A stretch of 64,000 nt of DNA. Origin: Tannerella serpentiformis (GTDB lineage Bacteria > Bacteroidota > Bacteroidia > Bacteroidales > Tannerellaceae). A model generated the notes under the pieces. It saw nothing but the letters and a program-made list of their open reading frames with translations. It was not told where the DNA came from and did not search any database. A program made the position numbers and the translations under genes. Of this stretch, positions 4,251 through 64,000 are shown in pieces (position 1 is the stretch's first letter; each line of letters opens with the position of its first letter). Where the stretch lies: contig NZ_CP028365.1 of NCBI RefSeq assembly GCF_003033925.1, positions 2,666,001 through 2,730,000 on the forward strand, read 5' to 3'.

Positions 4251-4600
4251 TGCGACACGAAACGGCTCCGACGGTCGGAAATGCCATTTCATGCGACACG
4301 AAACGGCTTCGACGGCCGGAAATGTCATTTCATGCGACATGAAACGGCTTCGACGGTCGGAAATGCCATTTCATGCGACACGAAACGGTTTCGACGGCCG
4401 GAAATGCCATTTCATGCGACACGAAACGGCTCCGACGGCCGTAAATGTCATTTCATGCAACACGAAACGGCTTCGACGGTCGGAAATGTCATTTCATGCG
4501 ACACGAAACGGCTTCGACGGTCGGAAATGTCGTTTCATGCGACACGAAACGGCTTCGACGGCTGGAAATGTCATTTCATGCGACACGACGCGGCCAAAAA
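4251..4600. repeat. 41-bp tandem array with two palindromes per unit
   Basis: About 8.5 units with a strict 41-bp period; the landmark TGCGACACG recurs at 4251, 4292, 4333, 4374, 4415, 4456, 4497, 4538 and 4579 with small changes. Each unit holds GAAATG-N-CATTTC, plus TCCGAC-G-GTCGGA or a TTCGAC variant. The array lies between two convergent genes and just after a terminator. 41 is not a multiple of 3, and the short reading frames across it share no codon pattern, so it is non-coding. Confidence 0.92.
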
Positions 4601-4720
4601 GACCATTTCTGGTCACCCGAAATGACTAAAAAGAGGTTTGCGGCCATTTCGGGCCACCAGAAACGACTAAAAAGAGGTTCGCGGCCATTTCGGGTCACCA
4701 GACGCGGCTTCGACGGTCGT
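4601..4720. repeat. Second 41-bp repeat family, adjoining the first
   Basis: A different sequence takes over: GACTAAAAAGAGG recurs at 4624 and 4665, again 41 bp apart, with CCATTTCGGG and GGTCACC or GGCCACC in each unit. Inverted CCGAAATG and CATTTCGG lie within the unit. The last unit runs back into a piece of the first family (GGCTTCGACGGTCG). The period is kept while the sequence is replaced. Confidence 0.8.
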
Positions 4721-4752
4721 CCGCGTCCTGCCGCACGATGCGCACGATGCGT

Positions 4753-5070
4753 TTAGGCCTCGCCGGGCTTCCCGATCGGGGGGAGCATGCCGCCGAACGA
4801 GTTCGCGTCGTCAGCGCCTCCGCCCTGCCGCGTTTCGTCGTATTGGCGCAGGTTCTCGTCCAGCGTGTGGAGCAGTCGGCGGGCATTGTCGGGCGTCATA
4901 ATGAGGCGGCACTTCACCTTCGCCTTCGGCACCCCGGGCACGAGGCGGATAAAGTCAAAGACGAACTCATCCTCCGAATGGGCAATGACGGCCAGGTTGA
5001 CGTACGTACCCTGTGCCACCTCGTCCGTGAGTTCAATTTGGATCTCGTTAGAAGTCGTGTGTGTATCCAT
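4753..5070 (-). CDS. DUF3467 family protein
   Basis: 105-residue soluble protein matching DUF3467: beta-rich core with YVNLAVIAHSEDEFVFDF, then TPDNARRLLHTLDENL. Proteins of this family are small, widespread in Bacteroidota and have no assigned function. Expressed alone from the minus strand and divergent from the DUF4831 gene. The C-terminal tail (GGADDANSFGG onwards) looks disordered. The 3' end meets the palindromic array at 4.25-4.72 kb. Confidence 0.85.
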   Translation of the reverse strand: MDTHTTSNEIQIELTDEVAQGTYVNLAVIAHSEDEFVFDFIRLVPGVPKAKVKCRLIMTPDNARRLLHTLDENLRQYDETRQGGGADDANSFGGMLPPIGKPGEA

Positions 5071-5102
5071 AAACAGCTAATTGATATTTGAATTACGGGG
5101 CG

Positions 5103-5110
5103 CGAAAGTA
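5103..5110 (-). promoter_or_regulatory. Probable -7 box for the DUF3467 gene
   Basis: On the minus strand TACTTTCG, one mismatch from the Bacteroidota -7 consensus TAnnTTTG, 33 bp before the start codon. The same variant box precedes the ResB-CcsA gene. Confidence 0.4.
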
Positions 5111-5118
5111 GAGAAACG

Positions 5119-5148
5119 TTGTGCCGGTGAAAAATAGAGATAGATTTG
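5119..5148 (+). promoter_or_regulatory. Bacteroidota promoter for the DUF4831 gene
   Basis: -33 element TTGTG at 5119 and -7 box TAGATTTG at 5141-5148, 17 bp apart, matching the TTG / TAnnTTTG pattern. It lies about 50 bp before the start codon at 5198. Confidence 0.6.
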
Positions 5149-5197
5149 CGCACCTTTTTGCATTAATAAACGCAGGCAACATAAACTGAAGACGAAT

Positions 5198-6271
5198 ATG
5201 AAATACAGCATCTGGACGATCTGCCTCCTGCTCGGCATGGCCTCTCCGGCCTTTTCGCAAACGCGGGTGGAGAAGAAAATAGCGATGAAAAGCAACGGCT
5301 ACGGCGTCACCTACTCCCTCCCCAAAACATCGCTGGTCGTAACGGCCGAAATCACCCAAGTGACCTGCAAGGCCGGGCCTTACTACAAGTATGCCGAAAA
5401 GTATCTCGGCGTCAAGGATGCCGTCATGTCCGACCATGTGTATTACGAACTGAGTAAAGTCTACCTGCAAAACAAAGGCGTGCCCGACGAGGCCAATACC
5501 TACATCGTCGAGTTCAAACCCAAAACCACCGCCCCTTTCGTCTACCTGACCGATGACGGCCTGCTCTGCACCATCAATGCCGACTATAGCCCCACGGAAT
5601 CTGTCGTAGCCGTAGCCAAACGCAGCGCGCAAGCCGCCGAGAAGGAACAGGTGCCCGCGCTGATGACCGAGGAGCTGCTGATGGCCGGATCCGTCACCCG
5701 ACAGGCCGAAGTGGCCGCCCGACAGATCTACAAGCTGCGCGAAACACGCATGGACATCCTCTCCGGCGAGGCCGACAACATGCCCCCCGACGGCGAGGCC
5801 ATGAAGATCGTCCTCCAGCAACTCACCGACCAGGAGCAGGCCCTGACCGCCCTCTTCGTCGGCGAAAAGCATCGCAAGACCACCTTCCATGAAACCCGCA
5901 TCGTGCCCGACGACGACCTCGATCGCGAAGTCCTCTTCCGCTTCTCCGAGAAGCTCGGCCTCCTCGATCCCGACGACCTCGGCGGCACCCCCATCTACCT
6001 CAGCCTCCATGCCATCAATCGCGCTCCCGCCCTCGACCCTAAAGAGGCCGAGAAGAAGGAAAAGTCCATGAAGGGCATCATCTATAATGTGCCCGGCAAG
6101 GCCGACGCGCGGATCGAAATGGGCGACAAACAGCTCTATCGCGGCGAGGTGCAAGTGGTGCAGTTCGGCTCGCACGAGGCCCTGGCGCCCGTCATGTTTG
6201 AAGACCGAAAGGCGCCGATCAAGGTCATCTTCTACCCCGAAACGGGCGCCATCAAGCAGATCATTCAATAA
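5198..6271 (+). CDS. DUF4831 family exported protein
   Basis: 357 residues with a signal peptide (MKYSIWTICLLLGMASPAFS, cut before QTR). The sequence fits DUF4831, a Bacteroidota family of exported proteins of unknown role, with the typical motif GPYYKYAEKYLGV early on and MDILSGEADNMPPDGEAM mid-protein. No catalytic motif is seen. It has its own promoter and is followed 39 bp later by a POT transporter gene in the same direction, so the two may share transcripts. Confidence 0.85.
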   Translation: MKYSIWTICLLLGMASPAFSQTRVEKKIAMKSNGYGVTYSLPKTSLVVTAEITQVTCKAGPYYKYAEKYLGVKDAVMSDHVYYELSKVYLQNKGVPDEANTYIVEFKPKTTAPFVYLTDDGLLCTINADYSPTESVVAVAKRSAQAAEKEQVPALMTEELLMAGSVTRQAEVAARQIYKLRETRMDILSGEADNMPPDGEAMKIVLQQLTDQEQALTALFVGEKHRKTTFHETRIVPDDDLDREVLFRFSEKLGLLDPDDLGGTPIYLSLHAINRAPALDPKEAEKKEKSMKGIIYNVPGKADARIEMGDKQLYRGEVQVVQFGSHEALAPVMFEDRKAPIKVIFYPETGAIKQIIQ

Positions 6272-6310
6272 CTACTCATCCATACATTACCGACTAAAAA
6301 ACTGATTCTT

Positions 6311-7885
6311 ATGTTCAAAGACCATCCCAAGGGACTCATCCCTGCCGCCCTCTCCAACATGGGCGAACGCTTCGGGTATTACATCATGAATGCCGTGCTG
6401 GTGCTTTTTCTCTGCTCCAAATTCGGACTGAGCGACGAGGCCAGTGCCATCATCTACTCCGTCTTCTATTGCGGCATCTATGTGCTTAGCCTCGTGGGCG
6501 GCATCATTGCCGATCGCACCCAGAACTATAAAGCCGTCATCCGCTCCGGCCTCATCATCATGGCCACCGGCTACATCATCCTCTCCATCCCCATTCTCTC
6601 CACCCAAGGCAACATCGGTTGGCTGCTGCCCCTGACCTGCTTCGCCCTGCTGCTCATCGCCTTCGGTAACGGCCTCTTCAAGGGCAACCTGCAAGCCATC
6701 GTCGGACAGATGTATGACAACTTCGAGGCCGAAGCCCTGGCCCAAGGCCCCGAGGCTTATCGCCGCGTGCAAGGCAAACGCGACTCAGGCTTCCAGATTT
6801 TCTACGTCTTTATCAATGTCGGCGGACTCATCGCGCCCTTCGTTGCCCCCTTGCTGCGCGAGTGGTGGCTCAACACGCACGGCCTGATCTACAACGCTGC
6901 CCTGCCCGCCGCCTGCCACCAGTACATTTTAGAAGGAGCCTCCATGGTTGGCGATCCGATGAAGAATCTGCTCGGGCTGATCGGTAAGGTCGGCGGCACG
7001 GTAGACGCCAATTCACCCGATTCCATTCGTGCCTTCTGCGAGAGCTACCTCGACATCTTCAACACCGGCATCCACTATTCCTTCATCGCCTCCGTGGCCG
7101 CCATGCTCATTTCGCTCATCATTTTCATGGTCAACCAGAAGATATTCCCCGTGCCCGCCAAGAAAGAGAAGCAGGTCGTGGAGGATTACACCCCGGAGGA
7201 GCGGGCCGAGATGGCGGGCGAGATCAAGCGCCGCATGTACGCCCTCTTTGCCGTCTTAGGCATCGTCATCTTCTTCTGGCTCTCCTTCCACCAGAACGGC
7301 CAATCGCTCTCCCTCTTCGCCCGCGACTTTGTCCAGACCGACAACCTCGCCCCGGAGATTTGGCAGGCCGTCAACCCCTTCTTCGTCATCACGCTCACGC
7401 CCATTGTCATGCTCATCTTCGGTGCCCTCAGCAAGCGCGGCCGCGAGATCTCGACCCCCCGCAAGATTGCCATCGGTATGGGTATCGCCGGCTTGGCCTT
7501 CCTCTTCCTGGCCATCTTCTCCTTCATGCAGGGCTACCCCTCGGGAACCGAATTCAAGAGACTATCCGACAGCGAACAGATGGCCATCAAAGCCGGCCCT
7601 TGGGTGCTGATCGTGCTTTACTTCTTCCTCACCGTGGCCGAGCTATTTATCTCGCCGCTGGGCCTCTCGTTCGTCTCGAAAGTCGCCCCGAAACATCTGC
7701 AAGGCCTCTGTCAAGGCCTCTGGCTCGGCGCCACCGCCATTGGCAACCTCTTCCTCTGGATCGGCCCGCTGATGTATAACAAGATGCCCATCTGGCAGTG
7801 CTGGACCGTCTTCCTGACCATCTGCCTCATCTCCATGTTCGTCATGCTCGGCATGTTGAAATGGCTTGAGAAGATCGCCAAGTAA
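6311..7885 (+). CDS. POT-family proton-coupled peptide transporter
   Basis: 524-residue inner-membrane protein of the major facilitator superfamily with about 12-14 hydrophobic segments. The N-terminus has the family hallmark MGERFGYYIMNAVLVLFL (the ExxERFxYY motif that couples protons and peptide), followed by GGIIADRTQNYK, the MFS loop motif. Family members import di- and tripeptides, which suits a peptide-fermenting organism that degrades protein outside the cell. Substrate is inferred from family only. A strong terminator follows. Confidence 0.93.
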   Translation: MFKDHPKGLIPAALSNMGERFGYYIMNAVLVLFLCSKFGLSDEASAIIYSVFYCGIYVLSLVGGIIADRTQNYKAVIRSGLIIMATGYIILSIPILSTQGNIGWLLPLTCFALLLIAFGNGLFKGNLQAIVGQMYDNFEAEALAQGPEAYRRVQGKRDSGFQIFYVFINVGGLIAPFVAPLLREWWLNTHGLIYNAALPAACHQYILEGASMVGDPMKNLLGLIGKVGGTVDANSPDSIRAFCESYLDIFNTGIHYSFIASVAAMLISLIIFMVNQKIFPVPAKKEKQVVEDYTPEERAEMAGEIKRRMYALFAVLGIVIFFWLSFHQNGQSLSLFARDFVQTDNLAPEIWQAVNPFFVITLTPIVMLIFGALSKRGREISTPRKIAIGMGIAGLAFLFLAIFSFMQGYPSGTEFKRLSDSEQMAIKAGPWVLIVLYFFLTVAELFISPLGLSFVSKVAPKHLQGLCQGLWLGATAIGNLFLWIGPLMYNKMPIWQCWTVFLTICLISMFVMLGMLKWLEKIAK

Positions 7886-7919
7886 CCGGCTCCATCCATC
7901 CATAAAGTAGACGCAGAGC

Positions 7920-7966
7920 AGAGAGCGTGCACGGGAAAACAAGACCCGCCGCACGCTCTCTTTTTG
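7920..7966 (+). terminator. Rho-independent terminator after the POT transporter
   Basis: Stem AGAGAGCGTGC pairing with GCACGCTCTCT and followed by TTTTT, with a long loop. It is the last backbone feature before the array stub and the ICE. Confidence 0.88.
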
Positions 7967-7970
7967 CCTT

Positions 7971-8038
7971 GGTGTTTGCGGGAGTTCCGCAAGTCTCTCG
8001 AGAAACTTTTTGGTGTTTGCAGGAACTCTGCATCGAGA
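7971..8038. repeat. Stub (about 1.6 units) of the 41-bp array that resumes at 37.67 kb
   Basis: GGTGTTTGCGGGAGTTCCGC starts at 7971 and again, altered, at 8012: a 41-bp step. The first unit matches units at 38.06-38.28 kb almost exactly, including CAAGTCTCTCGAGAAAC. The second has a changed stem, TGCAG-GAACT-CTGCA, which is still palindromic. The array is thus split by about 30 kb, which brackets the inserted element. Confidence 0.85.
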
Positions 8039-8062
8039 GCCTATCTATCTGAATGGGAGAAT

Positions 8063-8103
8063 GTTACCTATAATGTAAAAGGGAATAGGTAACGATTAGG
8101 TAA
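8063..8103. other. Candidate left attachment site (attL)
   Basis: Contains GTTACCT, then ATAGGTAACGATT at 8085-8097, then AGGTAA. The same 13 bp occur in the same orientation at 37513-37525, next to the integrase genes, also preceded by GTTACCT and followed by a GGT-A variant. Inverted GTTACCT/AGGTAAC arms are typical of a tyrosine-recombinase core site. The exact crossover bases cannot be fixed from one sequence. Confidence 0.5.
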
Positions 8104-9441: not shown

Positions 9442-9468
9442 CCCCCTCCTCTACAAAAGCAGGATTAG

Positions 9469-12584: not shown

Positions 12585-12708
12585 GCTGTCGATGAAAAGA
12601 ATGATCCTTTGGAAGGATGTGATCCATGCCTGTGTCCCCGTCTCTTCTGCGCGAAATTGGTGCAACGGTAATCCGGTCGCGATTACCTTTGCCTCAAAAC
12701 AAACCCAT

Positions 12709-13512
12709 ATGACAGTCAGAGAATGGATCAGAAAGCGGGAGATCGGCGGGATGCCCACGCTCACTTTCGGGGAGGTGCGCCAAGCCTTTCCCAACGCTTC
12801 GGAGCAAGTCGTCAAGAACGAATTGTTCCGGTTGTCTGCGCAGAAAATCATCGTATCCGTATACCGCGGATTTTATGTGATCATGCCGCCGCACTATGCC
12901 GGCCGAGGCGTCATCCCTCCGCATTACTACATCGATCGGCTGATGGCCCATCAAAACAAGCCTTACTACATCAGCCTGCTCAGCGCGGCGGCATTGCTGG
13001 GGGCTGCGCACCAACGGCCGCAGAAGTTTTTCGTCACCACCGTTTTACCGAAGCCTTCGGTGTCCCCTTCCAAAAACAACCTGCTGGTGTGGTCGTATCG
13101 CAAAGAGATTCCGTCGGACTTTTTGCTGACGAAAAACTCGGAGACCGGCACGATCCGCTACTCCAATGCCGAACTGACGGCCGTCGATCTGATACAATAC
13201 GAGCAATATATCGGCGGTTTGTCTGAGGCGGCGACGGTCTTGGCTGAGCTGTCGGAGAGGCTGGACTTCCGTCGTGTCTCGGGGCGGCTGTTCGACTACA
13301 CCTCGCAAGCCACCCTCCAACGATTGGGGTATGTCTTAGAAGAAGTTTTGCTGCAGACGGAAGTGGCCGACGTGCTGTATGAGAAGCTACGTGCGTATGC
13401 CGGAAGGCTGCGGTATGTACCGCTGTCCACGCGCAGCACGGAGGTGATGGCGGCAAAAAACGATCGCTGGAAGATCGACGTCAATATGACTATCGAGCCG
13501 GACGACGTATGA
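12709..13512 (+). CDS. abiEi: AbiEi-type antitoxin of a type IV toxin-antitoxin system
   Basis: 267 residues. The N-terminal part is a winged-helix DNA-binding domain (LTFGEVRQAFPNASEQVVKN, then IVSVYRGFYVIM). The AbiEi core follows with PYYISLLSAAALLGAAHQRP, typical of the family. AbiEi counters the AbiEii nucleotidyltransferase and usually represses its own operon. ATG 12709 is preferred over the open frame back to 12592 because the conserved domain begins just after it. Its stop overlaps the AbiEii start (ATGA). The pair can abort phage infection or stabilise mobile DNA. Confidence 0.88.
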   Translation: MTVREWIRKREIGGMPTLTFGEVRQAFPNASEQVVKNELFRLSAQKIIVSVYRGFYVIMPPHYAGRGVIPPHYYIDRLMAHQNKPYYISLLSAAALLGAAHQRPQKFFVTTVLPKPSVSPSKNNLLVWSYRKEIPSDFLLTKNSETGTIRYSNAELTAVDLIQYEQYIGGLSEAATVLAELSERLDFRRVSGRLFDYTSQATLQRLGYVLEEVLLQTEVADVLYEKLRAYAGRLRYVPLSTRSTEVMAAKNDRWKIDVNMTIEPDDV

Positions 13513-16161: not shown

Positions 16162-16289
16162 TCTTGCCGTAGAAGAAGTGAAGACGGAGTTTCAGGGAAA
16201 GAAATTTGTATTTCAACACTATAAAGATACAACAATTTTCGCTAATCACCAATTTTACAGACTGTTATAATTCATCGAACTCACGTTAG

Positions 16290-34880: not shown

Positions 34881-36128
34881 CTATGCGCCCTGTTCCGGGC
34901 TTTTTCCCATCCGGTTACCCGGCGCGGCACCGCCTTCCCCCGCCTTCCTTCTTCGGGCAATGAGCCGATCCACATCCTCCGAAATCTTCTGATCGGTGAT
35001 GCGGGCGTAGAGTTCCGTGGTGGTGACGGAGGCGTGGCCCATCATGCGGGCGATGCTCTCCATAGAGATCCCTGCTTCGAGGGTGAGCGTGCCGAACGAG
35101 TGACGCCCGACGTGAAATGTTAGCGGTTCGTGGAGGCCGCATGCCTTACCAATAGCCTTGAGGCGATGGGTTAATAGGAAGTAACTCGCGTCAGGGAAGA
35201 TCCTGCGGTCTTCCGTCTTATCATCTTTCAGGTAAAGCGAAAGGAGCTGTTCGGCGATCGGGTGAAGAGGGATGAGGCTCTCCTCGTGGGTCTTCTGCCG
35301 CGCCTTTCGGATGTATCGCCGACCCGTGCCGTCCGTCTCGATCTGTGACCTTCGGAGCGTCCGCAAGTCGGCGTAAGCCAGCCCTGTGAAGACCGAAAAG
35401 AGGAACATGTGGCGACTCAGCTCCGTGGCTTCGTCTCGGACGGAAAAGGCCAGGAGACGCTCCACTTCATGCTTTTGCAGAAAGCGTGGGCGATACTTCT
35501 CCGTCTCGTATCGCACTCCCTCGAAAGGGTTGAAACGGATCACGCCGCGGGCAATCGCGCGGCGCATCAATCGGCCGAGCCAATGGAGGTGCCGGTTTGT
35601 CGTGGACACAGCGTAGCCCCTTCGCTTCAGAAATAAACGATACGTATCGAAGAAGTCCGGCGCGAGTGTCGGGATCGGAATGTCCAATTCGCCACGGCTG
35701 CGAACAAAGTCCCGCAGTCCACTGTCAGAACGGCGGTTATTTTGATAAGTGCCGGGACTCCTTGAGCGGCCCACGCAGGCTTCCACGGTCCGCAGTTCCT
35801 CTGTGCTCGTTTCCAAAAGCATCGTCGGAGTCTCGTTCACCCCCTGCAATCGGAGTTTCAGTCGTTCGACACTAACTACACCCTCCCGCCGAAGGAGCGT
35901 CGTGTAGCTCGCTTCGATTCGTTCGCGAAGGGCCTGCAAGCGAAGATTGATCTTCCGGTCGCCCGTCTCACCTGACTTCGTCTGCCACGCCTCGGGCGCG
36001 CATTCCTCGCCCGTAGCGATAACCGCCGAACGGCCGTCCACGGTGATTCGACAGAGCACGGCCGCCTTTCCGTTCTTTTTCGTCTTGTTTCGATTGATGT
36101 AAAACAGGATTCTAAATGTGCTGCGCAT
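34881..36128 (-). CDS. Tyrosine recombinase (ICE integrase)
   Basis: 415 residues: N-terminal arm-binding domain (to about 100), SAM-like core-binding domain (about 100-210), catalytic domain (215-390). HVGR is at 339-342, the second His in MGH at 365, and nucleophile Tyr374 in TELYARI. The usual first Arg (TGLR) is replaced: the site reads TGLAYADLR. CTnDOT integrase also lacks this Arg. It lies 12 bp downstream of the second recombinase in the same direction. Confidence 0.92.
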   Translation of the reverse strand: MRSTFRILFYINRNKTKKNGKAAVLCRITVDGRSAVIATGEECAPEAWQTKSGETGDRKINLRLQALRERIEASYTTLLRREGVVSVERLKLRLQGVNETPTMLLETSTEELRTVEACVGRSRSPGTYQNNRRSDSGLRDFVRSRGELDIPIPTLAPDFFDTYRLFLKRRGYAVSTTNRHLHWLGRLMRRAIARGVIRFNPFEGVRYETEKYRPRFLQKHEVERLLAFSVRDEATELSRHMFLFSVFTGLAYADLRTLRRSQIETDGTGRRYIRKARQKTHEESLIPLHPIAEQLLSLYLKDDKTEDRRIFPDASYFLLTHRLKAIGKACGLHEPLTFHVGRHSFGTLTLEAGISMESIARMMGHASVTTTELYARITDQKISEDVDRLIARRRKAGEGGAAPGNRMGKSPEQGA

Positions 36129-36140
36129 GAGATTCCGGGG

Positions 36141-37370
36141 TTAAAGAGTCAGACGAAGATCTTGGGTGAAGGCGAGGAAACGATCGAACTCCTCGAAGAG
36201 TTTGCGCGACGTGACTCGGGCGTATCGCTCGGTCATTTTGAGGCTACCGTGGCCCAACATGCGGCTCACGGTTTCAATGGGTGCACCGTTTTCAAGCGTA
36301 ATCAGCGTGGCGAACGTGTGTCGCCCGATGTGTGCCGTCAGCGGGAATGCGAGGCCTGCTTTCAGTCCGACGGCCTTCAGTCGGATGAGGTAAGTGTAGT
36401 AAGGGATCGGCGAGAAAAGCGTCTCTCGCTCGTCGGAGCGGTAACGCTCGATGAGCGCCACGGCCTCGGGCAGGAGCTTCACCCGACAGAGCGCCCCCGT
36501 CTTTTGCCGCTTGAACTTCAGCCACAGGTCGTCGCGATCGTCTCGGAAGAGGTGTGAGCGCGTAAGCCGCACCATGTCGCAATAGGCCGCCCCGGTGTAG
36601 CAGGTAAACGCGAACAGATCGCGGGCAATCGCCAAGTCCTTTTGATGGGGTGGAAAGGTGAGTGCCAGCAGTCGGTCGAAGGCCGTCCGGTCGAGCGACC
36701 GCGGTGCACTTCGTTTCTCACGCGTGATGCGAATTCCTTCGAAGAGCGGTCGGTCGGAGAGACCCTCCCGGTAAGCCAGCCGGCACACCTTCTTCAGCAT
36801 GCAAGACAGCCGAAGAAAGGAGTTGTCAGAGAGCCCCAACTCCCCTTTGATATAGCGCTCGAACTGCGGGAAGAAGTCCTCCGTCATCTCACTGAAAGTC
36901 ATGTCTTCCCGGCCGAAACGGCTCCGTATAAAGCGGGTGAAGTGCTTTCTCGCTTGATGGTATTTCAGCGCCGAATGCCTCGTCAGATCGACGCCGACGC
37001 GTGCATCTACTTCCTCCAACAGCCAGTCGTAGCGTTCGAGGAAGGTCGTCCGACTGTGGGCATTGCCTTGCAATCGTTCCTTGATGTCGGCGGCCGTGAA
37101 GGCCACACCCCGATCGGCCAGTGTCCGGTAAGCCTGACTAATGGCCAGCATCAGATCGTCTAACTTCTCATTGGTGACGACGGCCTCCCGGCTCTTGCCT
37201 CTAAGGCGGCTCTCGCGGGGATTCCAGAGGTCGGGCGGGCAAGAAAATTTGCTACCGAATTGAGCCATTGTCCCGGCATACGTGATGCGCCCCATGATTG
37301 GTGCCCGTCCCGATTTGTCAATACTGCTCTTTTTTAGGTAGAGCAAAACCTTCATCGTTTCTCTCTTCAT
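36141..37370 (-). CDS. Second tyrosine recombinase (ICE integrase)
   Basis: 409 residues with the same domain plan. Catalytic residues: HIGRHTFATL, LGHGSLKMTERYARV with the nucleophile Tyr. The first Arg site reads CYTGAAYCDMVRLT, again without Arg at the usual place. Tandem tyrosine recombinases are common in Bacteroidota ICEs and may act together. It reads away from the candidate attachment site about 130 bp upstream. Confidence 0.92.
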   Translation of the reverse strand: MKRETMKVLLYLKKSSIDKSGRAPIMGRITYAGTMAQFGSKFSCPPDLWNPRESRLRGKSREAVVTNEKLDDLMLAISQAYRTLADRGVAFTAADIKERLQGNAHSRTTFLERYDWLLEEVDARVGVDLTRHSALKYHQARKHFTRFIRSRFGREDMTFSEMTEDFFPQFERYIKGELGLSDNSFLRLSCMLKKVCRLAYREGLSDRPLFEGIRITREKRSAPRSLDRTAFDRLLALTFPPHQKDLAIARDLFAFTCYTGAAYCDMVRLTRSHLFRDDRDDLWLKFKRQKTGALCRVKLLPEAVALIERYRSDERETLFSPIPYYTYLIRLKAVGLKAGLAFPLTAHIGRHTFATLITLENGAPIETVSRMLGHGSLKMTERYARVTSRKLFEEFDRFLAFTQDLRLTL

Positions 37371-37531: not shown

Positions 37532-37667
37532 CGCTCCGTCTTCATCGATCCCAACGCTTTGCCTTTTCTTTGCCGATGCAAATCCGTTAGAACCGATGCA
37601 CTTATCACCCAAAACCCGATCGTTTTTCCCACTGCCTTCCTTAGGCTTCCTCCATACTAATAGACTT

Positions 37668-38330
37668 GCAGGAATGCTGCAAGAGCCGCGAAAAACTTTT
37701 TGGTGTTTGCAGGAACGCTGCAAGTGTCCCGAAAAACTTTTTGGCGTTTGCGGGAGCCCCGCAAACGTCTCGGCGAATGCCGGGAGCCTCGCGCAGCCTG
37801 CGCAAACGTCTCGGCAAATGCCGGGAACCTCGCGCAGCCTGCGCAAACGTCTCGGCAAATGCCGGGAGCCTCGCGCGGCCTGCGCAAACGTCTCGGTAAA
37901 TGCCGTGGAACTTGCGCAGCCTGCGCAAACGTCTCGGTAAATGCCGGGAGCCTCGCGCAACCTGCGCAAACGTCTCGGCAAATGCCGGGATACTTGCGCG
38001 GCCTGCGCAAACGTCTCGGCGAATGCCGGGAACCCCGCAAGTGCCTCGAAAAACTTTTTGGTGTTTGCGGGAGTCCCGCAAGTCTCTCGAGAAACTTTTT
38101 GGTGTTTGCGGGAGTTCCGCAAGTCTCTCGAGAAACTTTTTGGTGTTTGCGGGAGTCCCGCAAGTCTCTCGAGAAACTTTTTGGCGTTTGCGGGAGTTCC
38201 GCAAGTCTCTCGAGAAACTTTTTGGTGTTTGCGGGAGTCTCGCAAGTCTCTCGAGAAACTTTTTGGCGTTTGCGGAAGTTCCGCAAGCGACAAAAAATGC
38301 TTTTCGGCATTTGCGGAAGTTCCGCAGGGC
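37668..38330. repeat. 41-bp array of two families, sixteen or so units
   Basis: Three blocks, all at 41 bp. Type A (37668-37765 and about 38030-38330): GTGTTTGCGGGAGTCCCGCA, then TCTCGAGA and AAACTTTTTG. Type B (37766-38030): CGTCTCGGCAAATGCCGGGA, then GCGCAG-C-CTGCGC. A stems vary in step: TTGCGGGA/TCCCGCAA, TTGCGGAA/TTCCGCAA, TTGCAG/CTGCAA. In B the dyads are CGGCA-AA-TGCCG and GCGCAG-C-CTGCGC, about 20.5 bp apart. The array lies between convergent POT and TonB genes if the ICE is removed. 41 is not a multiple of 3, so long ORFs across it are artefacts. Confidence 0.92.
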
Positions 38331-38451
38331 ATTTCCAAAAACGTTTTGACCCTCGCGTAGCTTCCGTAGAAACACTCTGCCGGCTTTATGCTTTCGTCGA
38401 ACACACGTTTTCTATATGTGTTTTCGATGTCGTCCCGCCACCGAAGGTCGA

Positions 38452-42784: not shown

Positions 42785-45025
42785 TTATGCGTAGGAATGC
42801 ATGCCGCCGAGCAGGTAGTTGACGCCGAAGTAGGTCATCAGCAGCGTGAGGAAGGAGAGGAGGAGGTAGACGTGATAGGCCATCGGGCGACGGAAGGCGG
42901 GCCAAGTGTGGGTGTGGATGACGACGGCGTAGACCATGAACGTGATCAAGGCCCACGTCTCCTTCGGGTCCCAGCTCCAATACGTGCCCCACGAGACGTT
43001 GGCCCAGATGGCGCCGACGAAGATGCCGACGCCGAGCGTGACGAGCGCGGGGTAGAGGAAGAGGAGCGAGAGGAGGCGCAGCGCGTCCATGCGCTCGGCC
43101 GTGCGCTCCGGATCGCGGCGGCCGATGGCGGCCAGAAGGAGGGCCGTGAGGGCGCAGACGAACGTGAGGCTGAGCAGTGCATAAGCCATCATAATGACGG
43201 AGACGTGCAGGCTGAGCAGCGGCGAACCGAGGACGGGCATGAGGGGCGTGATGCGCGGATCCATCAGGGCCAGGTGGCTGACCAGAAGGAAGAAGCCGGA
43301 GATGAGCGCGCCGAAGGGGAGGGCGATGGGGAAGCGGCGTCCGGCTACGAAGGCGAAGAGGAGGGTGAACCAGGCGATGAGCAGCATCGTCTCGTAACCG
43401 TTGGCCACGGGCGCACGGCCGGCCACGATCCAGCGGAGCACCTCGCAGAGGGTCAGCGCGGCGAAGGAAAGGAGGAGCAGGCCGAGCGTGGCGCGTCGGA
43501 CGAGGCGATCGGTGCGCGGCGCGTCGTGCCGCCGGACGAGTCGGCGGATGGTGTAAAGCAGCGCCAAGAGGCCGACGGTGAGGTTGACGATGAAGAGCAC
43601 CGTGGCGAAGGGGAAGGCGTTCGTGAGGCGTTCGGCGCGCTCGGCCATGGGCGAGGGGAGGGTGCCGCCGGCGTGCAGGCGTTGGTATTTGTCGAGCTTC
43701 TCGATCAGCGTGTTGGCGGTGGCATAGTCGGCTTTGACGATCTGCTCGCGGAGCAGGCTGAGGTAGCTGCGCAGGAAGAGCGCATCCATGCGGGGCAACT
43801 CGCCGGGGGAGAGGGGCGTGGCCGGGTGACGCCAGCGGACGGCGCCGTAGACGTCGGCATGGGGGAAGAGCGCCAGCGCCGATCCGTCGCGTAGGGACAT
43901 GATGAGGCGGATCTTGGCGTCCATGTCTACGCAGGCCGTGTGGAAGGCGTCGCGCTGCCCCTGCTCGTATTCCATCAGGTAAGTCCCGAGGATATAGCCC
44001 CGGTCGGGCGAGAAGAAATGGTTGACGGACGCGTAGCGCGGCAGGCGCAGCTGACGGCGCAGGGCGGCGTCTTTGACGCGGATCATCGGCTCCTTGTCCC
44101 ATCCGCGCGGGTCGAAGAGGCGCCCCATCAGCACCTGCTCGGCCGTCAGTCCGCGATACGAGGCGCGGCCGTAGAGCTTCTTCGTGAAGTCGATGGCGAA
44201 GGTCTGCACCGGGGCGATGCGGTCGCTATAAAGGAGGTGCAGGCGCCCGAAGCGGTCGGCCGTCTCGCGGGGCACGATCAGGGGGTCGGCCGACGCCTCA
44301 CGCCCGATGGACAGGAGGACGAGCACGAGGAAGGCCCCGCGGCGCAGGCGGGCGTCGGAGAGCAGTCGGCGGAAGGTGCCGCGCGGATCGATGAGCAGTC
44401 CGACGAGGGCGGCGAAGAGCAGCCCGTAGCCGGTGTAAGTGATGGGAATGCCGTAGGGATCGGTGTTGACGGCCAGGTAACTGCCGGCCATGTCGGGGTC
44501 GTAAGCGTTCTGATAGAGCCGGACAGAGCGGAAGGTGAAGATGCGGTTCATCGCCGTTTCGCCGCGGAGGACGGTCTGGCCGTCGCTGACGGTGAAGTGG
44601 GACGTATAGTCGCGCTCGGCCGTCGTGCCGGCGTGGTAGTGGACGCGGAAGCTGTCGAGGGTGATGCGGAAGGGCAACTGCCGCTCCTCGGTGGAGCCGT
44701 CGGGCTGTTCGGCCAGGTAGGTGTCGACAGTTGTGCCCTGTCGGAGGTGGACGATGCCGCGCGAGGCCGTCAGGTGCGTCAGCAGGGCGCCGAGGAGGAT
44801 GACGACGAAGGCGGCGTGCACCAGCAGCGTGCTCCACCGCCTGACACGTCGCTTCACGATCCACGCCACGCCCAGGGCCGCCAGTAGGGCCCAGAGCAGC
44901 GTGAACCACCAGGCGCCATAGAGGTGACGGGCGACAAATTCGGTTCCGCGGAAGTGTTCGATCCACGTGGCCGTGGCCATCGTAGCCACGACGAGGGAGT
45001 AGGTGAGGGCAATAGCTCGCTTCAT
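42785..45025 (-). CDS. ResB-CcsA fusion, cytochrome c biogenesis protein
   Basis: 746 residues from ATG 45025. The N-terminal half is ResB-like (membrane helices, then a long soluble loop); the C-terminal half is CcsA-like with at least seven helices and the haem-handling motif WGTYWSWDPKETW. System II attaches haem to apocytochrome c across the inner membrane; the fused form is usual in Bacteroidota. The open frame continues 252 codons upstream only because the 42-bp repeats stay open in frame, so the start is set at MKRAIAL, after a -7 box at 45069-45076. Confidence 0.92.
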   Translation of the reverse strand: MKRAIALTYSLVVATMATATWIEHFRGTEFVARHLYGAWWFTLLWALLAALGVAWIVKRRVRRWSTLLVHAAFVVILLGALLTHLTASRGIVHLRQGTTVDTYLAEQPDGSTEERQLPFRITLDSFRVHYHAGTTAERDYTSHFTVSDGQTVLRGETAMNRIFTFRSVRLYQNAYDPDMAGSYLAVNTDPYGIPITYTGYGLLFAALVGLLIDPRGTFRRLLSDARLRRGAFLVLVLLSIGREASADPLIVPRETADRFGRLHLLYSDRIAPVQTFAIDFTKKLYGRASYRGLTAEQVLMGRLFDPRGWDKEPMIRVKDAALRRQLRLPRYASVNHFFSPDRGYILGTYLMEYEQGQRDAFHTACVDMDAKIRLIMSLRDGSALALFPHADVYGAVRWRHPATPLSPGELPRMDALFLRSYLSLLREQIVKADYATANTLIEKLDKYQRLHAGGTLPSPMAERAERLTNAFPFATVLFIVNLTVGLLALLYTIRRLVRRHDAPRTDRLVRRATLGLLLLSFAALTLCEVLRWIVAGRAPVANGYETMLLIAWFTLLFAFVAGRRFPIALPFGALISGFFLLVSHLALMDPRITPLMPVLGSPLLSLHVSVIMMAYALLSLTFVCALTALLLAAIGRRDPERTAERMDALRLLSLLFLYPALVTLGVGIFVGAIWANVSWGTYWSWDPKETWALITFMVYAVVIHTHTWPAFRRPMAYHVYLLLSFLTLLMTYFGVNYLLGGMHSYA

Positions 45026-45093: not shown

Positions 45094-45675
45094 GGGTGGG
45101 GGAGGCGGCAGACATTCTGCCGGGGCTATCATGGGGTGTGGTGGTGTCGGCAGACATTCTGCCGGGACTATCATGGGGTGTGGTGGTGTCGGCAGACATT
45201 CTGCCGGGGCCATCATGGGGTGTGGTGATGTCGGCAGACATTCTGCCGGGACTATCATGGGGTGTGGTGGTGTCGGCAGACATTCTGCCGGGGCCATCAT
45301 GGGGTGTGGTGACGTCGGCAGACATTCTGCCGGGGCTATCATGGGATGTGGTGACGTCGGCAGACATTCTGCCGGAGCTATCATGGGGTGTGGTGGTGCT
45401 GGCGACAGTGTCGCCGAGGCTATCATGGGGTGTGGTAATGCTGGCGACAGTGTCGCCGGGACTATCATGGGGTGTGGTAACGCTGGCGACAGTGTCGCCG
45501 GGGCTATCATGGGGTGTGGTCGTGCTGGCGACAGTGTCGCCGGGGCTATCATGGGGTGTGGTCGTGCTGGCGACAGTGTCGCCGGGGCTATCATGGGGTG
45601 TGGTAATGCTGGCGACAGTGTCGCCGGGACTATCATGGGGTGTGGTGGTGCTGGCGACAGTGTCGCCGGGACTTC
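45094..45675. repeat. 42-bp array, 7+7 units with a palindrome switch
   Basis: Fourteen units at exact 42-bp steps. Units at 45107, 45149, 45191, 45233, 45275, 45317 and 45359 carry GGCAGA-CAT-TCTGCC; units at 45401, 45443, 45485, 45527, 45569, 45611 and 45653 carry GGCGACA-G-TGTCGCC. The rest of the unit (CTATCATGGGGTGTGGT) hardly changes. The array lies between divergent genes. 42 is a multiple of 3, so all six frames stay open; there is no other sign of coding. Confidence 0.95.
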
Positions 45676-48510: not shown

Positions 48511-48635
48511 GTGTTTGTGCTTGTGGGGGAGAATGCCCGGCCCGTAAGTGCGGGGGCTTCTACGATGAGCTTGACGCGAAGAGATCGCCCCCTTCGCCTC
48601 CATGCTTCTAACCTTAGAACCGGATCCGATACCCC

Positions 48636-48902
48636 GGCAGGCGGCCTGCCACCATCGCCAGAGTGTTTGGTAGCTCTGGCAGGCGGCCTGCCAACGTCAC
48701 CGGAGTCTTTGGTAGCCCTGTCAGGCGGCCTGCCACCATCACCAGAGTCTTTGGTAGCCCTGTCAGGCGGCCTGCCACTGTCACCTGAGTCTTCGATAGT
48801 CCCGGCAGGCGGCCTGCCAACGTCACCTGAGTCTTCGATAGTCCCGGCAGGCGGCCTGCCACCATCACCAGAGTCTCCGATAGGTTTGGCAGGCCGCCTG
48901 CC
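48636..48902. repeat. 42-bp tandem array, seven units
   Basis: Units at 48636, 48678, 48720, 48762, 48804, 48846 and 48888. Each has GGCAGGC-G-GCCTGCC (or GTCAGGC at two units) and an imperfect ACCAGAG-T-CTTTGGT, centres 21 bp apart. The last unit has C instead of G in the middle. Lies between the convergent nth and EEP-phosphatase genes. Confidence 0.93.
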
Positions 48903-48930
48903 AGCCTTTTAAGGGCCTCCGGGGGCGGCG

Positions 48931-52349: not shown

Positions 52350-52665
52350 GGCTGGCCCCTGAGGGTTTTGCGCTCCTTGAAAAAAAGAGGGGCTAAACCC
52401 TGAGGGTTTTGTGTCACTTGAAATAAAGTAGGGCTAAACCCTGAGGGTTTTGCGCTCCTTGAAAAAAAGTAGGGCTGGCCCCTGAGGGTTTTGCGTCACT
52501 TGAAAAAAAGAGGGGCTGAACCCTGAGGGTTTTGCACTACTTGAAATAAAGTAGGGCTGAACCCTGAGGGTTTTGCGCTACTTGAAATAAAGTAGGGCTG
52601 GCCCCTGAGGGTTTTGTGTCACTTGAAATAAAGTAGGGCTAAACCCTGAGGGTTCCAGCGCTACC
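52350..52665. repeat. 41-bp tandem array, eight units
   Basis: CTGAGGGTTT at 52359, 52400, 52441, 52482, 52523, 52564, 52605 and 52646 (last altered). Units carry AAACCCT-G-AGGGTTT (or a GGCCCCT form that weakens the dyad) and, in several units, CTACTT-GAAATA-AAGTAG, centres about 20-21 bp apart. It lies between the HU terminator and the patatin gene, both on the plus strand. Confidence 0.93.
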
Positions 52666-52807
52666 CAGAAAAAAGTAGGGCTGTATGTTAGCGCATACGG
52701 GTTCCCCCGAAAATAGATTGACGAGTAAAGGGCTATGGTCGATGGCCCGCTCTATCCAAACTGGCCCGCCACGGGGCCACTGCATACCTATTATATATAT
52801 GTGTAGA

Positions 52808-58310: not shown

Positions 58311-58640
58311 ATTGCTTCGATCAATATCAACTTGTAAGTATTGTGATTTGCTATTGCTTCAGACAGCATTAACTCTTTAGCTTATTAGCTATTATTGATT
58401 CGGATCACATTAACCCGCAACCTTATGAGCTATGATTGCTTCAGACGATATTAACTCATAACTTTATGATCAACTATTTGTGTGTGAAATATCAGATCGA
58501 AACCTTGAGAGTTGCTGTTGTCTCGGACAATGGTAGCTCATAAAATTTGGACTTACTGTTTTATCGCATAATGTTAGGTCCAAACATTAGGAGTTACCAT
58601 TGTCCGAGACAACGTTAGCTCAGAATCTTAGGGGTTGCTA
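58311..58640. repeat. Degenerate array with period about 41 bp
   Basis: Landmarks ATTGCTTC or relatives at 58311, 58353, 58394 and 58435, then GTTGTCTCGG at 58517 (two periods on), then near 58556 and 58598. Later units carry TTGTC-TCG-GACAA or TTGTC-CGA-GACAA. Sequence has drifted more than in the other arrays and is AT-rich. Lies between divergent kinase and mdh genes. Confidence 0.7.
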
Positions 58641-59876: not shown

Positions 59877-59916
59877 AAAGGGTGGAGCTCCCCGCAAGGG
59901 TTCCACCCTTTCTCTG
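59877..59916 (+). terminator. Hairpin after mdh
   Basis: AAAGGGTGGA pairs perfectly with TCCACCCTTT; a weak T-rich tail follows (TCTCTGTGTTT). Confidence 0.7.
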
Positions 59917-59993
59917 TGTTTAGACGATAGGAGCTACGTCCTACATCCTCTAACCCTTTCCTACTCCCCCCAACAATTCCCCCCTTTCTCCCC

Positions 59994-60815: not shown

Positions 60816-60817
60816 AG

Positions 60818-61744
60818 ATGAAAGCAGACAACATTTTAGGACTTATCGGAGGCACGCCACACGTTCGGTTGGGACGACTCTTCCCCGACCACGAGGTGTG
60901 GATGAAGCTGGAGCGACAGAACCCCGCGGGCAGCATCAAGGATCGTATCGCGCTGGCCATGATCGAGGATGCCGAGCAGCAGGGAATGATTCGCCCGGGC
61001 GCCACGCTGATCGAGGCTACGTCTGGCAACACCGGCGTGGGACTGGCCTTTGTGGCCGCCGTGAAAGGCTATCGGCTGATCATCGTCATGCCCGAATCGA
61101 TGTCTGTCGAGCGTCGGCGACTGATGCAGAGCTACGGCGCTCGGCTGGAGCTGACGCCGCGCGAGAAGGGCATGAAGGGCGCCATTGAACGGGCCAAGGC
61201 CCTACTCGCCGAGATCGACGGATCGTGGATGCCGCGCCAGTTCGTGAACCCATCGAACCCTGAGGTGCACGCCCGTACGACGGCGCGCGAGATCATGGAC
61301 GACTTTCCCGAGGGCTTCGACTATTTCGTCACCGGTATTGGCACCGGTGGCCACATCTCGGGCGTGGGGCGTGAGCTGAAGCGCGTCTTCCCCAGTGTGC
61401 AGATCGTGGGCGTAGAGCCGGCTGATTCGTCCGTGCTGACCGGAGGATGCGCCGGCGCACACCCCATCCAAGGTATCGGGCCGGGCTTTGTGCCTGAGAC
61501 GCTCGACCGCAACGTGATCGACCGCGTGACGGCCATCACTGGGCCGGACGCTTTCCGGTTTGCCCGCCGACTGGCGCGTGAGGAGGGCATCCTCTGCGGC
61601 ATCTCCACCGGTGCGTCGCTGGCTGCCGTGGAGCGTGTGCTGGCTGGATCGGGTGTGTCGAAACGCGTCCTGACTTTCGGCCTCGACACCGGCGAACGCT
61701 ACCTATCGGTCGAAGGACTGTTCACAAACAAGGTCAGACACTAA
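60818..61744 (+). CDS. cysK: Cysteine synthase (O-acetylserine sulfhydrylase)
   Basis: 308 residues. PLP-binding Lys41 in NPAGSIKDRIA, substrate loop TSGNTGVGLAF, and glycine loop GIGTGGHISGVGREL. Makes cysteine from O-acetylserine and sulfide. Could be named cysM; sequence alone does not decide. Operon with cysE. Confidence 0.93.
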   Translation: MKADNILGLIGGTPHVRLGRLFPDHEVWMKLERQNPAGSIKDRIALAMIEDAEQQGMIRPGATLIEATSGNTGVGLAFVAAVKGYRLIIVMPESMSVERRRLMQSYGARLELTPREKGMKGAIERAKALLAEIDGSWMPRQFVNPSNPEVHARTTAREIMDDFPEGFDYFVTGIGTGGHISGVGRELKRVFPSVQIVGVEPADSSVLTGGCAGAHPIQGIGPGFVPETLDRNVIDRVTAITGPDAFRFARRLAREEGILCGISTGASLAAVERVLAGSGVSKRVLTFGLDTGERYLSVEGLFTNKVRH

Positions 61745-61778
61745 GGCACGCCCATAGAAGTACCCGGCCAAACTCCAC

Positions 61779-61794
61779 GGCCTCGGCTGAGGCC
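61779..61794. terminator. Short hairpin between cysK and the DUF5106 gene
   Basis: GGCCTC-GGCT-GAGGCC, perfect 6-bp stem and 4-nt loop, without a T-run. May be an attenuating or processing hairpin. Confidence 0.35.
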
Positions 61795-61818
61795 TCCATC
61801 ACTCACCTAACGATAAAG

Positions 61819-62775
61819 ATGAAAAGACAACTCCTTGCTGCATGCTGCGCCATCATTGCGCTGACCGTCGGATGCAGCCCGACGAAACGAGCGGACGACG
61901 CTCCGCACACCTTCACGCCCGCCGCTGTCCCCGCTGAATATCGCCAACCTCAGGCCCGCGCCGCCTACCTGGCCATGCACTATTGGGACGGTTTCGACTT
62001 CCGCGACACAGCCTTCGTGGGTTCTGCCGCCAGCGTCACCGAAAACGCCCTGACGGACTATTTCAACGCCGTCTTCCCCAACGTCCCGTACGACGTGGCC
62101 GCCGCCGGCATCCGCAACCTGCTCGACCGTGCCGTCACGAATCGCGCCATGTACGCCTTCTTCACCTCCAAGATGGAGCAGTACCTCTTCAACCCGGCCT
62201 CGCCCATGCGCAACGAGGAGTATTTCATTCCCACGCTGCAACACATGCTGGCCACCGACAGCCTCGACCGCTACCGTAAGGCCCGGGCGCAGGCCATGCT
62301 CGAGGAGGTCGTGAAGAACCGCCCCGGCACACCCGCTGCGGACATTCATTATGCCACCGCAAGCGGCGGAACCGGCTCGCTCTACGCCCTGAAGACGGAC
62401 TTTGTGCTCATCTTCTTCCACAACCTCGACTGCGGCAACTGCCGCCAGCTGGCCGCCGCCATCAGCGCCTCGCCCATCGTCAGCGAGCTGATGAAACGCG
62501 GTCGACTGACCGTCTTGGCCATCTATCCGGACATGGCGGCCGACATGTGGCGCCAGTATCTGCCGCAGATGCCTTCCGCCTGGACGCACGGCTACGACCG
62601 CGATCTGGAGATCGCCAACAACCACACCTACATCCTGCGTGTGTTGCCCGCGCTCTACCTCGTCGACCGCGACCACCGCGTGGTGATGAAAGACGCCGCC
62701 TTCCCCTACGTCGAGCAATACTTGGCCAATATCCTCAACCCGCCCTCCCTCATGCAGCCGCGCGCTGCGCAATGA
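61819..62775 (+). CDS. DUF5106-type lipoprotein with thioredoxin-like domain
   Basis: 318 residues: lipobox ALTVGCSP (Cys19), a helical N-terminal half as in DUF5106, then a thioredoxin-like domain with DCGNC (Cys205 and Cys208, a CxxC) and LPALYLVDRDHRVVMKDAAF. Probably anchored in the periplasm and acting in disulfide exchange. Substrates unknown. Confidence 0.8.
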   Translation: MKRQLLAACCAIIALTVGCSPTKRADDAPHTFTPAAVPAEYRQPQARAAYLAMHYWDGFDFRDTAFVGSAASVTENALTDYFNAVFPNVPYDVAAAGIRNLLDRAVTNRAMYAFFTSKMEQYLFNPASPMRNEEYFIPTLQHMLATDSLDRYRKARAQAMLEEVVKNRPGTPAADIHYATASGGTGSLYALKTDFVLIFFHNLDCGNCRQLAAAISASPIVSELMKRGRLTVLAIYPDMAADMWRQYLPQMPSAWTHGYDRDLEIANNHTYILRVLPALYLVDRDHRVVMKDAAFPYVEQYLANILNPPSLMQPRAAQ

Positions 62776-62780
62776 ATCGG

Positions 62781-62813
62781 TGCGCCCGTACCTATTATTA
62801 TAGGTGGGGCGCA
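62781..62813. terminator. Hairpin after the DUF5106 gene
   Basis: TGCGCCC and GGGCGCA arms with inner ACCTAT/ATAGGT pairing; no T-run. Possible terminator or RNA structure just ahead of the next gene. Confidence 0.4.
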
Positions 62814-62850
62814 TCCCCCATCAACCATCCTCTCAAAAAAACAAAACGAA

Positions 62851-63420
62851 ATGAAGAAAAGCATCATCTACACCGGCGGTGGCGACAAAGGCACCACCGC
62901 ACTCGTGGGCGGCTTTCGCGTGCCCAAAACCCATCCGCGGCTCGAAGCCTATGGCACCATCGACGAGCTCAATTCGCACATCGGCCTGCTCATGGCCGAC
63001 GTTGACGACCCCGAGACGCTCGACACGCTCCGCTTCGTGCAACACAAACTCTTCACCGTCGGCTCCTATCTGGCCACCGACCCCACCAAGACCGACTTCC
63101 GGATCGAGAGTCGCGTCACACCCGAGGCCATCCAACGCATCGAGTCGGCCATCGACCGCATCGACGGCCAGCTGCCCCGCCTGAACGCCTTCGTGCTGCC
63201 CGGTGGCAACCGCGCCTCGGCTCAGGCGCACGTTTGCCGCACCGTCTGCCGCCGCGCCGAGCGTTGCATCTATCGACTGACCGAGACCGGCGCTGAGGTC
63301 GAGGAGCCCGTCCTCATCTTCATGAACCGCCTTTCGGATTTGCTCTTCGTCATCGGTCGCAACGAGTGCGTCCGCCGTGGCGACGACGAAATCATCTGGG
63401 ACAGCAAGGAAGGCGCCTGA
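62851..63420 (+). CDS. Cob(I)alamin adenosyltransferase, PduO type
   Basis: 189 residues. ATP-binding N-terminus YTGGGDKGTTALVGG, then LEAYGTIDELNSHIG, and VCRRAERCIYRL and FMNRLSDLLFVIGR, all PduO/CobA2-type marks. Makes adenosylcobalamin, the cofactor of methylmalonyl-CoA mutase on the propionate route. Followed by the terminal array. Confidence 0.95.
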   Translation: MKKSIIYTGGGDKGTTALVGGFRVPKTHPRLEAYGTIDELNSHIGLLMADVDDPETLDTLRFVQHKLFTVGSYLATDPTKTDFRIESRVTPEAIQRIESAIDRIDGQLPRLNAFVLPGGNRASAQAHVCRTVCRRAERCIYRLTETGAEVEEPVLIFMNRLSDLLFVIGRNECVRRGDDEIIWDSKEGA

Positions 63421-63454
63421 GGCGGCGGGATCAACTGTCGATCGCCTTCCCCCG

Positions 63455-64000
63455 TCCCGCGGCGGGACGGCGTCTCAATGGTCATTTGGGTCTCGTCCCG
63501 TGGCGGGACGGCGTCTCAATGGTCATTTGGGTCTCGTCCCGTGGCGGGACGGCGTCTCAATGGCCATTTTGGTCTCGTCATGCGGCATGATGGCGTCTCA
63601 ATGGCCATTTTGGTCTCATCCCGTGGCGGGATGGCGTCTCAACGGCCATTTTGGTCTCGTCATGCGGCATGATGGCGTCTCAATGGCCATTTTGGTCTCG
63701 TCATGCGACATGACGGCGTCTCAATGGCCATTTTGGCCTCGTCATGCGACATGACGGCGTCTCAATGGCCATTTTGGCCTCGTCATGCGGCATGATGGCG
63801 TCTCAACGGCCATTTTGGTCTCGTCATGCGACATGATGGCGTCTCAATGGCCATTTTGGCCTCGTCATGCGACATGATGGCGTCTCAATGGCCATTTTGG
63901 TCTCGTCATGCGGCATGATGGCGTCTCAATGGCCATTTTGGTCTCGTCATGCGGCATGACAGCGTCTCAATGGCCATTTTGGCCTCGTCATGCGACATGA
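63455..64000. repeat. 41-bp array with covarying palindromes, running off the window
   Basis: About 13 units at 41-bp steps, GTCTCAATGG at 63472, 63513 and on. Palindrome 1 varies in pairs: GTCCCGC-G-GCGGGAC, GTCCCG-TGG-CGGGAC, ATCCCG-TGG-CGGGAT, GTCATGC-G-GCATGAT and GTCATG-CGA-CATGAC. Palindrome 2 is AATGGCCATT (or AATGGTCATT, AACGGCCATT). Centres about 20-21 bp apart. Lies after the adenosyltransferase gene; its far end is outside the window. Confidence 0.95.

Follow-up and report, generated by a model that had tools for sequence, protein, structure and literature searches.

The window examined in this study, a stretch of 64,000 nucleotides, covers positions 2,666,001 to 2,730,000 of contig NZ_CP028365.1 (G000:C1:2666001-2730000) of Tannerella serpentiformis, whose complete genome has 3,013,500 bp. 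It carries a series of tandem arrays, nearly all with a unit of 40–42 bp, whose units contain short palindromes (dyads). To place them in a wider frame, we analyzed a genome sample consisting of the window and 40 evenly spaced 20-kb stretches (864 kb, 28.7% of the genome; loci carry numbers with L), and called arrays by Tandem Repeats Finder (TRF). On the basis of these data, we consider the arrays to be palindrome-phased minisatellites of mobile origin, similar to miniature inverted-repeat transposable elements (MITEs), with a probability of roughly 57%. A subset of them lies inside MITE-like elements that have inverted ends and are flanked by target duplications.

A preceding sequence-only reading of the window had listed nine array places with 40–42-bp units, and TRF confirmed those at 4.25, 34.3, 37.7-38.3, 45.1, 48.6, 52.35, 58.3 and 63.5 kb. 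The segment at 7.97 kb (7971..8042) yielded no TRF call and turned out to be just two dyads at a distance of 41 bp (TTGCGGGAGTTCCGCAA and TTGCAGGAACTCTGCA), a fragment of the TTGC family described below. The first array (4248..4588; 41-bp unit, 8.3 copies) has a related composite array at L096 3344-3927 (83% over 425 bp) and is adjoined by 2.4 copies of a second 41-bp unit family (4603..4702). Between 20000 and 38300 lies a conjugative-element region with a DUF4141 gene at 26233 and two Xer-type tyrosine recombinases at 34881-37370. Here TRF found an array additional to the earlier list, with 3.4 copies of a 42-bp unit and a 21-bp sub-period (25915..26057). In the same region, six copies of a 40-bp unit (34269..34512) contain an A-tract dyad and a ATTGTACGATACAAT dyad 19.5 bp apart, and have relatives at L110 16608 and L116 15290. 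At 37.7–38.3 kb, three 41-bp arrays follow each other, namely the TTGCAGGA family (37666..37755, 2.2 copies), a second family of units whose register matches that of its neighbors (37760..38038, 6.8 copies) and the TTGCGGGAGTCCCGCAA family (38027..38287, 6.4 copies); unit families of different sequence can therefore abut in register. A paralogous copy of the conjugative-element region is present near L116, and the arrays common to both copies differ in their number of units (6 vs 8 and 2 vs 4).

Further to the right, the stem of a 42-bp array with 13.1 copies (45119..45670) shifts along the array from GGCAGACATTCTGCC to GGCGACAGTGTCGCC. This array was placed inside a gene by our gene calls, probably by a wrong start, as the ResB and cytochrome-c-assembly matches fall within 42788-45022. 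The next one (48627..48903; 42-bp unit, 6.6 copies, dyad TGGCAGGCGGCCTGCCA) is flanked by two genes, one endonuclease III-like and the other nuclease/phosphatase-like, and the array at 52350..52683 (41-bp unit, 8.1 copies, dyad AACCCTGAGGGTT) has a relative at L124 4960. A weak array of 2.9 units of 40–41 bp (58352..58469), whose dyad is not above shuffles (P=0.92), has a relative at L114 19738-19924 (70%). Finally, 13 copies of a 41-bp unit at 63469..64000, with the stems TCCCGTGGCGGGA and TCATGCGGCATGA both present, continue past the window edge. Within this array, a 313-bp segment (63658-63970) matches L092 2777-3089 at 94% identity, and the match stops where the array stops.

The common period proposed in the sequence-only reading was also found genome-wide, with no wide spread of periods. 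The main census (non-redundant arrays, score at least 100, period at least 10) contained 181 arrays, 135 of which had a period of 40 (9), 41 (61), 42 (61) or 43 bp (4); the commonest period outside this range was 84 (six arrays). At a lower cut-off (score at least 50), periods of 21 (n=15), 22 (n=10) and 7 bp (n=9) were also prominent. Extrapolation from the 135 arrays suggests ∼470 arrays of 40–43 bp per genome, and arrays with periods of 38–45 bp occupy 38.7 of the 864 kb sampled (4.5%). In an outgroup set of 80 named loci (1.29 Mb, mostly Bacteroidota and some Gemmatimonadota), none of the 15 arrays with a score of at least 100 had a period of 40–43. A composite repeat of 378 bp (9 × 42) at L124 16366-17800 is perhaps a higher-order repeat on the 42-bp pitch.

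The units are highly diverse. When matches of 30 bp at 80% identity were required, 137 arrays of the genome sample fell into 92 clusters, 66 of which were single, and a looser rule gave 72 clusters from 135 arrays, the largest having 19 members. The earlier claim that most loci share no sequence is thus largely correct, except that for several arrays of the window, related ones occur in other parts of the genome. Within clusters, similarity is often limited to the array with unmatched flanks, and other pairs match in the flanks too. An A-tract dyad is common to 13 of the 135 arrays (0.13% of shuffles).

Dyads were much more frequent than expected from shuffled units, as the sequence-only reading had predicted: the best dyad score was at least 6 in 62% of 142 consensus units and in 9% of shuffled ones, and a score of at least 5 was reached in 90 of 105 arrays vs 36±5 in 60 column shuffles that kept the copies. 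Dyad centers were mostly on a base (87 odd and 18 even; family-weighted, 38 and 11, vs 12 and 12 in shuffles). Copy-to-copy variability was ∼0.04 at 3–7 bp from the dyad center, 0.09–0.13 at 9–13 bp and ∼0.05 at 15–18 bp. The ratio of arm variability to the rest was 0.58 for the main dyad (control 1.01±0.13) and 0.67 for the second dyad (control 0.98±0.12), therefore both dyads look constrained. The claim of two dyads 19–21 bp apart in most arrays was borne out in 6 of 12 window arrays, in two of which the second dyad was weak (score 3); the remaining six had other spacings (9–11 or 15–15.5 bp). Taken singly, the main dyad was significant (P<0.05) in 4 of the 12. Throughout the genome sample, a second dyad at 20–21 bp was present in 33% of families vs 8% of controls, with a strength barely over control (0.25 vs 0.22 at a score of at least 4.5). 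Family-weighted base preferences in the dyads were mild (0.45 at most for one base). Array ends are phased as well: 55 of 138 free ends lie 6–13 bp outside the main-dyad center (26.6 expected, p=3e-8), and a Rayleigh test across all phases gave p∼0.004. Thus, many arrays have the form dyad-(linker-dyad)n.

The mobile origin is most evident in two families of terminal inverted repeats (TIR1 and TIR2). TIR1 is a perfect 28-bp end with six sites in the genome, all exact although up to three mismatches were allowed, which form three inverted pairs around arrays. Their inner lengths (296, 338 and 422 bp) differ by multiples of 42, and their flanking 10-mers, compared by eye, match at 9/10, 10/10 and 9/10 positions, respectively; we take them as target duplications of ∼10 bp. 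TIR2 is a 12-mer (ACGTGAGTTCGA) with 34 genome sites vs none for a reversed control. Among 17 loci, which were picked by a TIR2 end or an inner-arm motif and hence are biased to this family, 14 showed a recognizable end pair, and perfect 6–7-bp target duplications were present at 8 of these 14 elements. In 12 of the 14, the interior contains an array with a 40-, 41- or 42-bp unit and 2.2–13.1 copies, and L246 and L247 have one or two dyad steps only. By eye, leader and tail are common to the elements with three exceptions: L252 and L253 share just the ends, and L255 shares one side. The stems vary, with TTGC followed by AAC..GTT, ACC..GGT, GGG..CCC, AGA..TCT and others, and L252, L253 and L255 have a different main dyad next to a similar A-tract dyad. 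All 43 distinct TTGC-N9-GCAA words from loci of this genome were aligned for a compensation test, in which both sides had changed 53 times vs 25.7±4.4 in shuffles (0/500); the compensation score was 0.287 vs 0.116±0.015 (0/500 shuffles), and slid structures reached 0.03–0.15. For arrays in general, local alignment of the two flanks for inverted repeats attained a score of 12 in 17 of 113 cases vs 1.9% of mismatched pairs.

The window itself has a lone exact TIR2 end (16275..16286, minus strand) and a TIR2-like end with one mismatch past the right edge of the 37.7–38.3-kb arrays (38397..38408, minus strand), for which no left partner was seen. A 567-aa open reading frame by the lone end was considered as a transposase and rejected, with Helicase_C as its only match. 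Elsewhere in the genome, we identified an element of 1,024 bp with near-identical TIR2-like ends and a DDE_Tnp_1 match that is broken by an internal stop. No intact DDE copy with TIR2 ends was found among 15 PF01609 and 2 PF13751 matches, the ends having been inspected at two loci only. An autonomous insertion sequence was also sought in the relative G035, where no recognized transposase was seen in the 1.6-kb loci of three TIR2 sites (frames read by eye). An interspersed palindrome, GTAGGGGCGTATTGCATACGCCCC, occurs in the flanks of several arrays (for example, L106 and L122), and the word GTAGGGGCGTA is present in 11 array flanks.

We suggest the following course for these elements. In the subset with visible ends, inverted ends stand between target-site duplications and enclose dyads of ∼17 bp, one per 40–42 bp. 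A DDE transposase would move such elements in trans. Once inserted, they may gain or lose dyad-to-dyad intervals, one at a time, by hairpin-assisted slippage or unequal exchange; by such stepwise copying, the sequence would be replaced at an unchanged pitch. The property preserved could be the foldability of a single DNA strand. Arrays without visible ends would mostly be worn-down or exchanged relatives of these elements. Most arrays show no inverted ends, so their mobile origin is something that we infer. Most simply, the common pitch is inherited through module swapping; perhaps helical geometry, with two turns in 21 bp and four in 42 bp, helps to maintain it.

Several observations weigh against this mobile, MITE-like origin. 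Mobility is shown for a minority of the arrays only: inverted 11-mers from flank to flank were found in 11 of 116 composite arrays (3.6±1.6 for mismatched pairs), and direct 11-mers in both flanks in 7 of 116. Six of the 14 TIR2 elements have no perfect duplication (two of them are one base short), the 1,024-bp element has no clear target duplication, and two of the five TIR2 pairs in the sample at up to two mismatches enclose no array. The TTGC words were selected by their outer four pairs, and the measures of compensation that are least inflated by relatedness are weak (4 pairs with both-side change vs 3.8, 416/500; 12 further pair types vs 9.8, 27/500). Within arrays, compensating changes are modest (23 types vs 17.2±2.5), and the majority of changes in the arms disrupt pairing. 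In addition, units of relatives are unrelated and still have periods of 21–23 and 41–42 bp, for which descent alone is insufficient.

This last point comes from 35 other genomes of the genus, sampled non-randomly (1.24 Mb, score at least 80); their assemblies are drafts of at least 110 contigs, in which arrays may be lost. We identified 74 arrays, of which 33 had a period of 20–23 (23 of exactly 21), 20 a period of 40–43 and 21 other periods. The more deeply sampled G014, G016, G026, G027 and G033 contributed 45 of the 53 arrays of the two modes, seven relatives had one or two arrays, and 23 had none in the 4.7–20 kb sampled from each. None of the 53 units matched a unit of another genome (30 bp, 80%), and four matched at a looser rule (17 bp, 80%). 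Dyads were enriched in both period modes (52% vs 14% and 85% vs 37%), and the second dyad was over control in strength (0.71 vs 0.26, 17 arrays). At 17 sampled relative loci in which the nth gene pair was kept, no empty site was found. A geometric reading still has some weight, because several species show two pitch modes that equal two and four helical turns. In its broadest form, a process or DNA-binding system of Bacteroidales would read dyad symmetry and helical phase, not sequence, and keep or amplify tandem DNA only at a two- or four-turn pitch, with transposable elements as one vehicle. We offer this as a tentative alternative, well behind a mobile origin in probability; if helical phase is indeed read, it would be a case of sequence-independent DNA recognition.

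Two narrower geometric proposals are less likely. The first, which we consider doubtful, is that a dimeric protein of nucleoid-associated or gyrase-like type occupies the dyads side by side along one face of the helix and that selection for this arrangement keeps the 21/42-bp pitch. It fits the second dyads at 20–21 bp, the period modes of the relatives and the arm constraint at both dyads, which is present in every gene context (arm vs linker variability of 0.064 vs 0.108 in tandem, 0.041 vs 0.094 in convergent and 0.043 vs 0.086 in divergent gaps). However, the mild base preferences provide no strong common recognition sequence, a single protein would need to recognize dozens of distinct palindromes, and half of the window arrays have the other spacings. 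Slightly less probable again is an amplifying enzyme that copies stretches of two or four helical turns, measured by length and regardless of sequence. Modes of ∼21 and ∼42 bp across arrays and species with non-matching units would be expected from it, as would the 22-, 23- and 41-nt repeats of Porphyromonas gingivalis (PMC4596501). On the other hand, inheritance of the pitch by module swapping yields the same pattern, as the A-tract dyad in 13 arrays illustrates; units swap one dyad and retain a similar other, and no enzyme could be assigned to the measuring of length.

Hairpins acting at the RNA level, as terminators, stabilizers of mRNA or small-RNA arrays, are improbable, although the stems could fold on either strand and the arrays lie in intergenic gaps. 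Based on genes called with a simple dicodon gene caller made for this analysis, more than half of the array overlapped a called gene in 3 of 135 cases, and seven arrays were without a flanking gene. Among 125 classified arrays, 69 were in tandem, 29 in divergent and 27 in convergent gaps, compared with 221, 64 and 59 of all gaps >100 bp. These proportions resemble those of intergenic gaps in general, therefore termination does not explain the arrays, in agreement with the sequence-only reading. Rho-independent terminators and promoters were both rejected: there was no context bias, divergent gaps were as rich as convergent ones, and gene 3' ends were not preferred. Changes that G-U pairing would tolerate on the coding strand showed no significant asymmetry in the arms of tandem gaps (152 tolerated and 133 non-tolerated changes, p=0.29); arms had a larger share of tolerated changes than linkers (odds 1.31, p=0.08). 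As the arms are also constrained in divergent gaps, the constraint looks to be at the DNA level, which speaks against the hairpin RNA arrays that had been proposed as one possibility. An Rfam scan of the window at gathering thresholds matched a tRNA alone. Two further candidates were rejected. An open frame runs through 26 of 61 41-bp arrays and 32 of 61 42-bp arrays of this genome, so that such a frame does not indicate coding. In contrast with a CRISPR array, the linkers repeat along with the dyads, and adjacent copies are 90% identical across the whole unit.

Ordinary neutral minisatellites, with a common period and dyads due to chance or an artefact of the repeat finder, would survive in intergenic regions, where most arrays are indeed located, but the period concentration, dyad excess, arm constraint and end phasing are all over controls, which makes such an origin very improbable. 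Least credible is movement as repetitive extragenic palindromic (REP) sequences, bacterial interspersed mosaic elements (BIMEs) or REP doublets forming hairpins (REPINs) by a REP-associated Y1 transposase (RAYT): palindromes between genes, sometimes in regular tandem, are a likeness to BIMEs (PMC2817692), whereas no REP sequence is conserved across the 92 clusters and no correlation with RAYT was seen, Y1_Tnp being found once each in G000 and G026 and not in G014, G016, G027 and G033, all six of which are well sampled and bear arrays.

Helically phased tandem sites of 21–22 or 43 bp are known from plasmid iterons and F sopC. There, each replicon has a single such site with its one cognate protein, whereas here hundreds of diverse arrays are spread over the chromosome. 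The closest likeness to the MITE-like elements proposed here is found in P. gingivalis, and the statement of the sequence-only reading that no named system has this design has to be corrected. According to PMC4596501, this organism has tandem repeats of 41, 23 and 22 nt; the 41-nt repeats lie within MITE464/PgRS and the 23-nt repeats within BrickBuilt, and these two units are mutually without homology. Inverted ends with internal 41-nt tandem repeats are common to MITE464/PgRS and the elements described here. Compared by description, MITE464/PgRS has ∼10–20 copies, whereas we estimate ∼470 arrays by extrapolation, with dozens of families and more than one end sequence. BrickBuilt elements are always intergenic, with variable unit number, predicted stem-loops, inverted ends and some target duplications. 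Our arrays are likewise tandem repeats without spacers in intergenic DNA, with inverted ends and target duplications in a subset of them. BrickBuilt elements differ in the 23-nt unit, in their 19 copies and in occupying 0.44% of the genome, compared with 4.5% of our sample. In Table 2 of the same paper, the left end of MITE239 begins with ACGTGAGTTCGA and the right end of MITE700 is TCGAACTCACGT; these ends equal the TIR2 12-mer, and the comparison covered those 12 bp. MITE239 and MITE700 are reported there to lack mini- or microsatellites, unlike the TIR2 elements. No description of this pitch across unrelated arrays was found in our searches of open PubMed Central (PMC) papers. The kind of element is already known; as far as our searches reach, what is new is how many arrays there are and how diverse they are, together with the phasing of their ends and the pitch. 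A known type of mobile repeat thus seems to occur here on a very large scale and in diversified form. What appeared as two curiosities of P. gingivalis, the 41- and 23-nt MITE repeats, is seemingly a recurring class with one geometry, and a single genome offers hundreds of natural replicates for testing how repeat length is fixed in minisatellites and how stems change jointly.

Some other repeats and genes should be mentioned. Tandem repeats of 16 bp (13.8 copies) and 24 bp (4.4 copies; GTAACTGCATAAGTGA) at window 20563-20868 are outside the 41-bp class. Arrays of 22 bp with GTTCGGAAC-type words (L112 13464-13777 and L090 17650-17969) form a separate repeat family, and facing pairs of 7-bp arrays of TAGAGGG and CTCTACC occur at L090 18790-18980, L110 669-763 and L121 5923-6137. 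The window also contains a gene for an AbiEi-like antitoxin, identified by a Pfam match, at 12592-13509.

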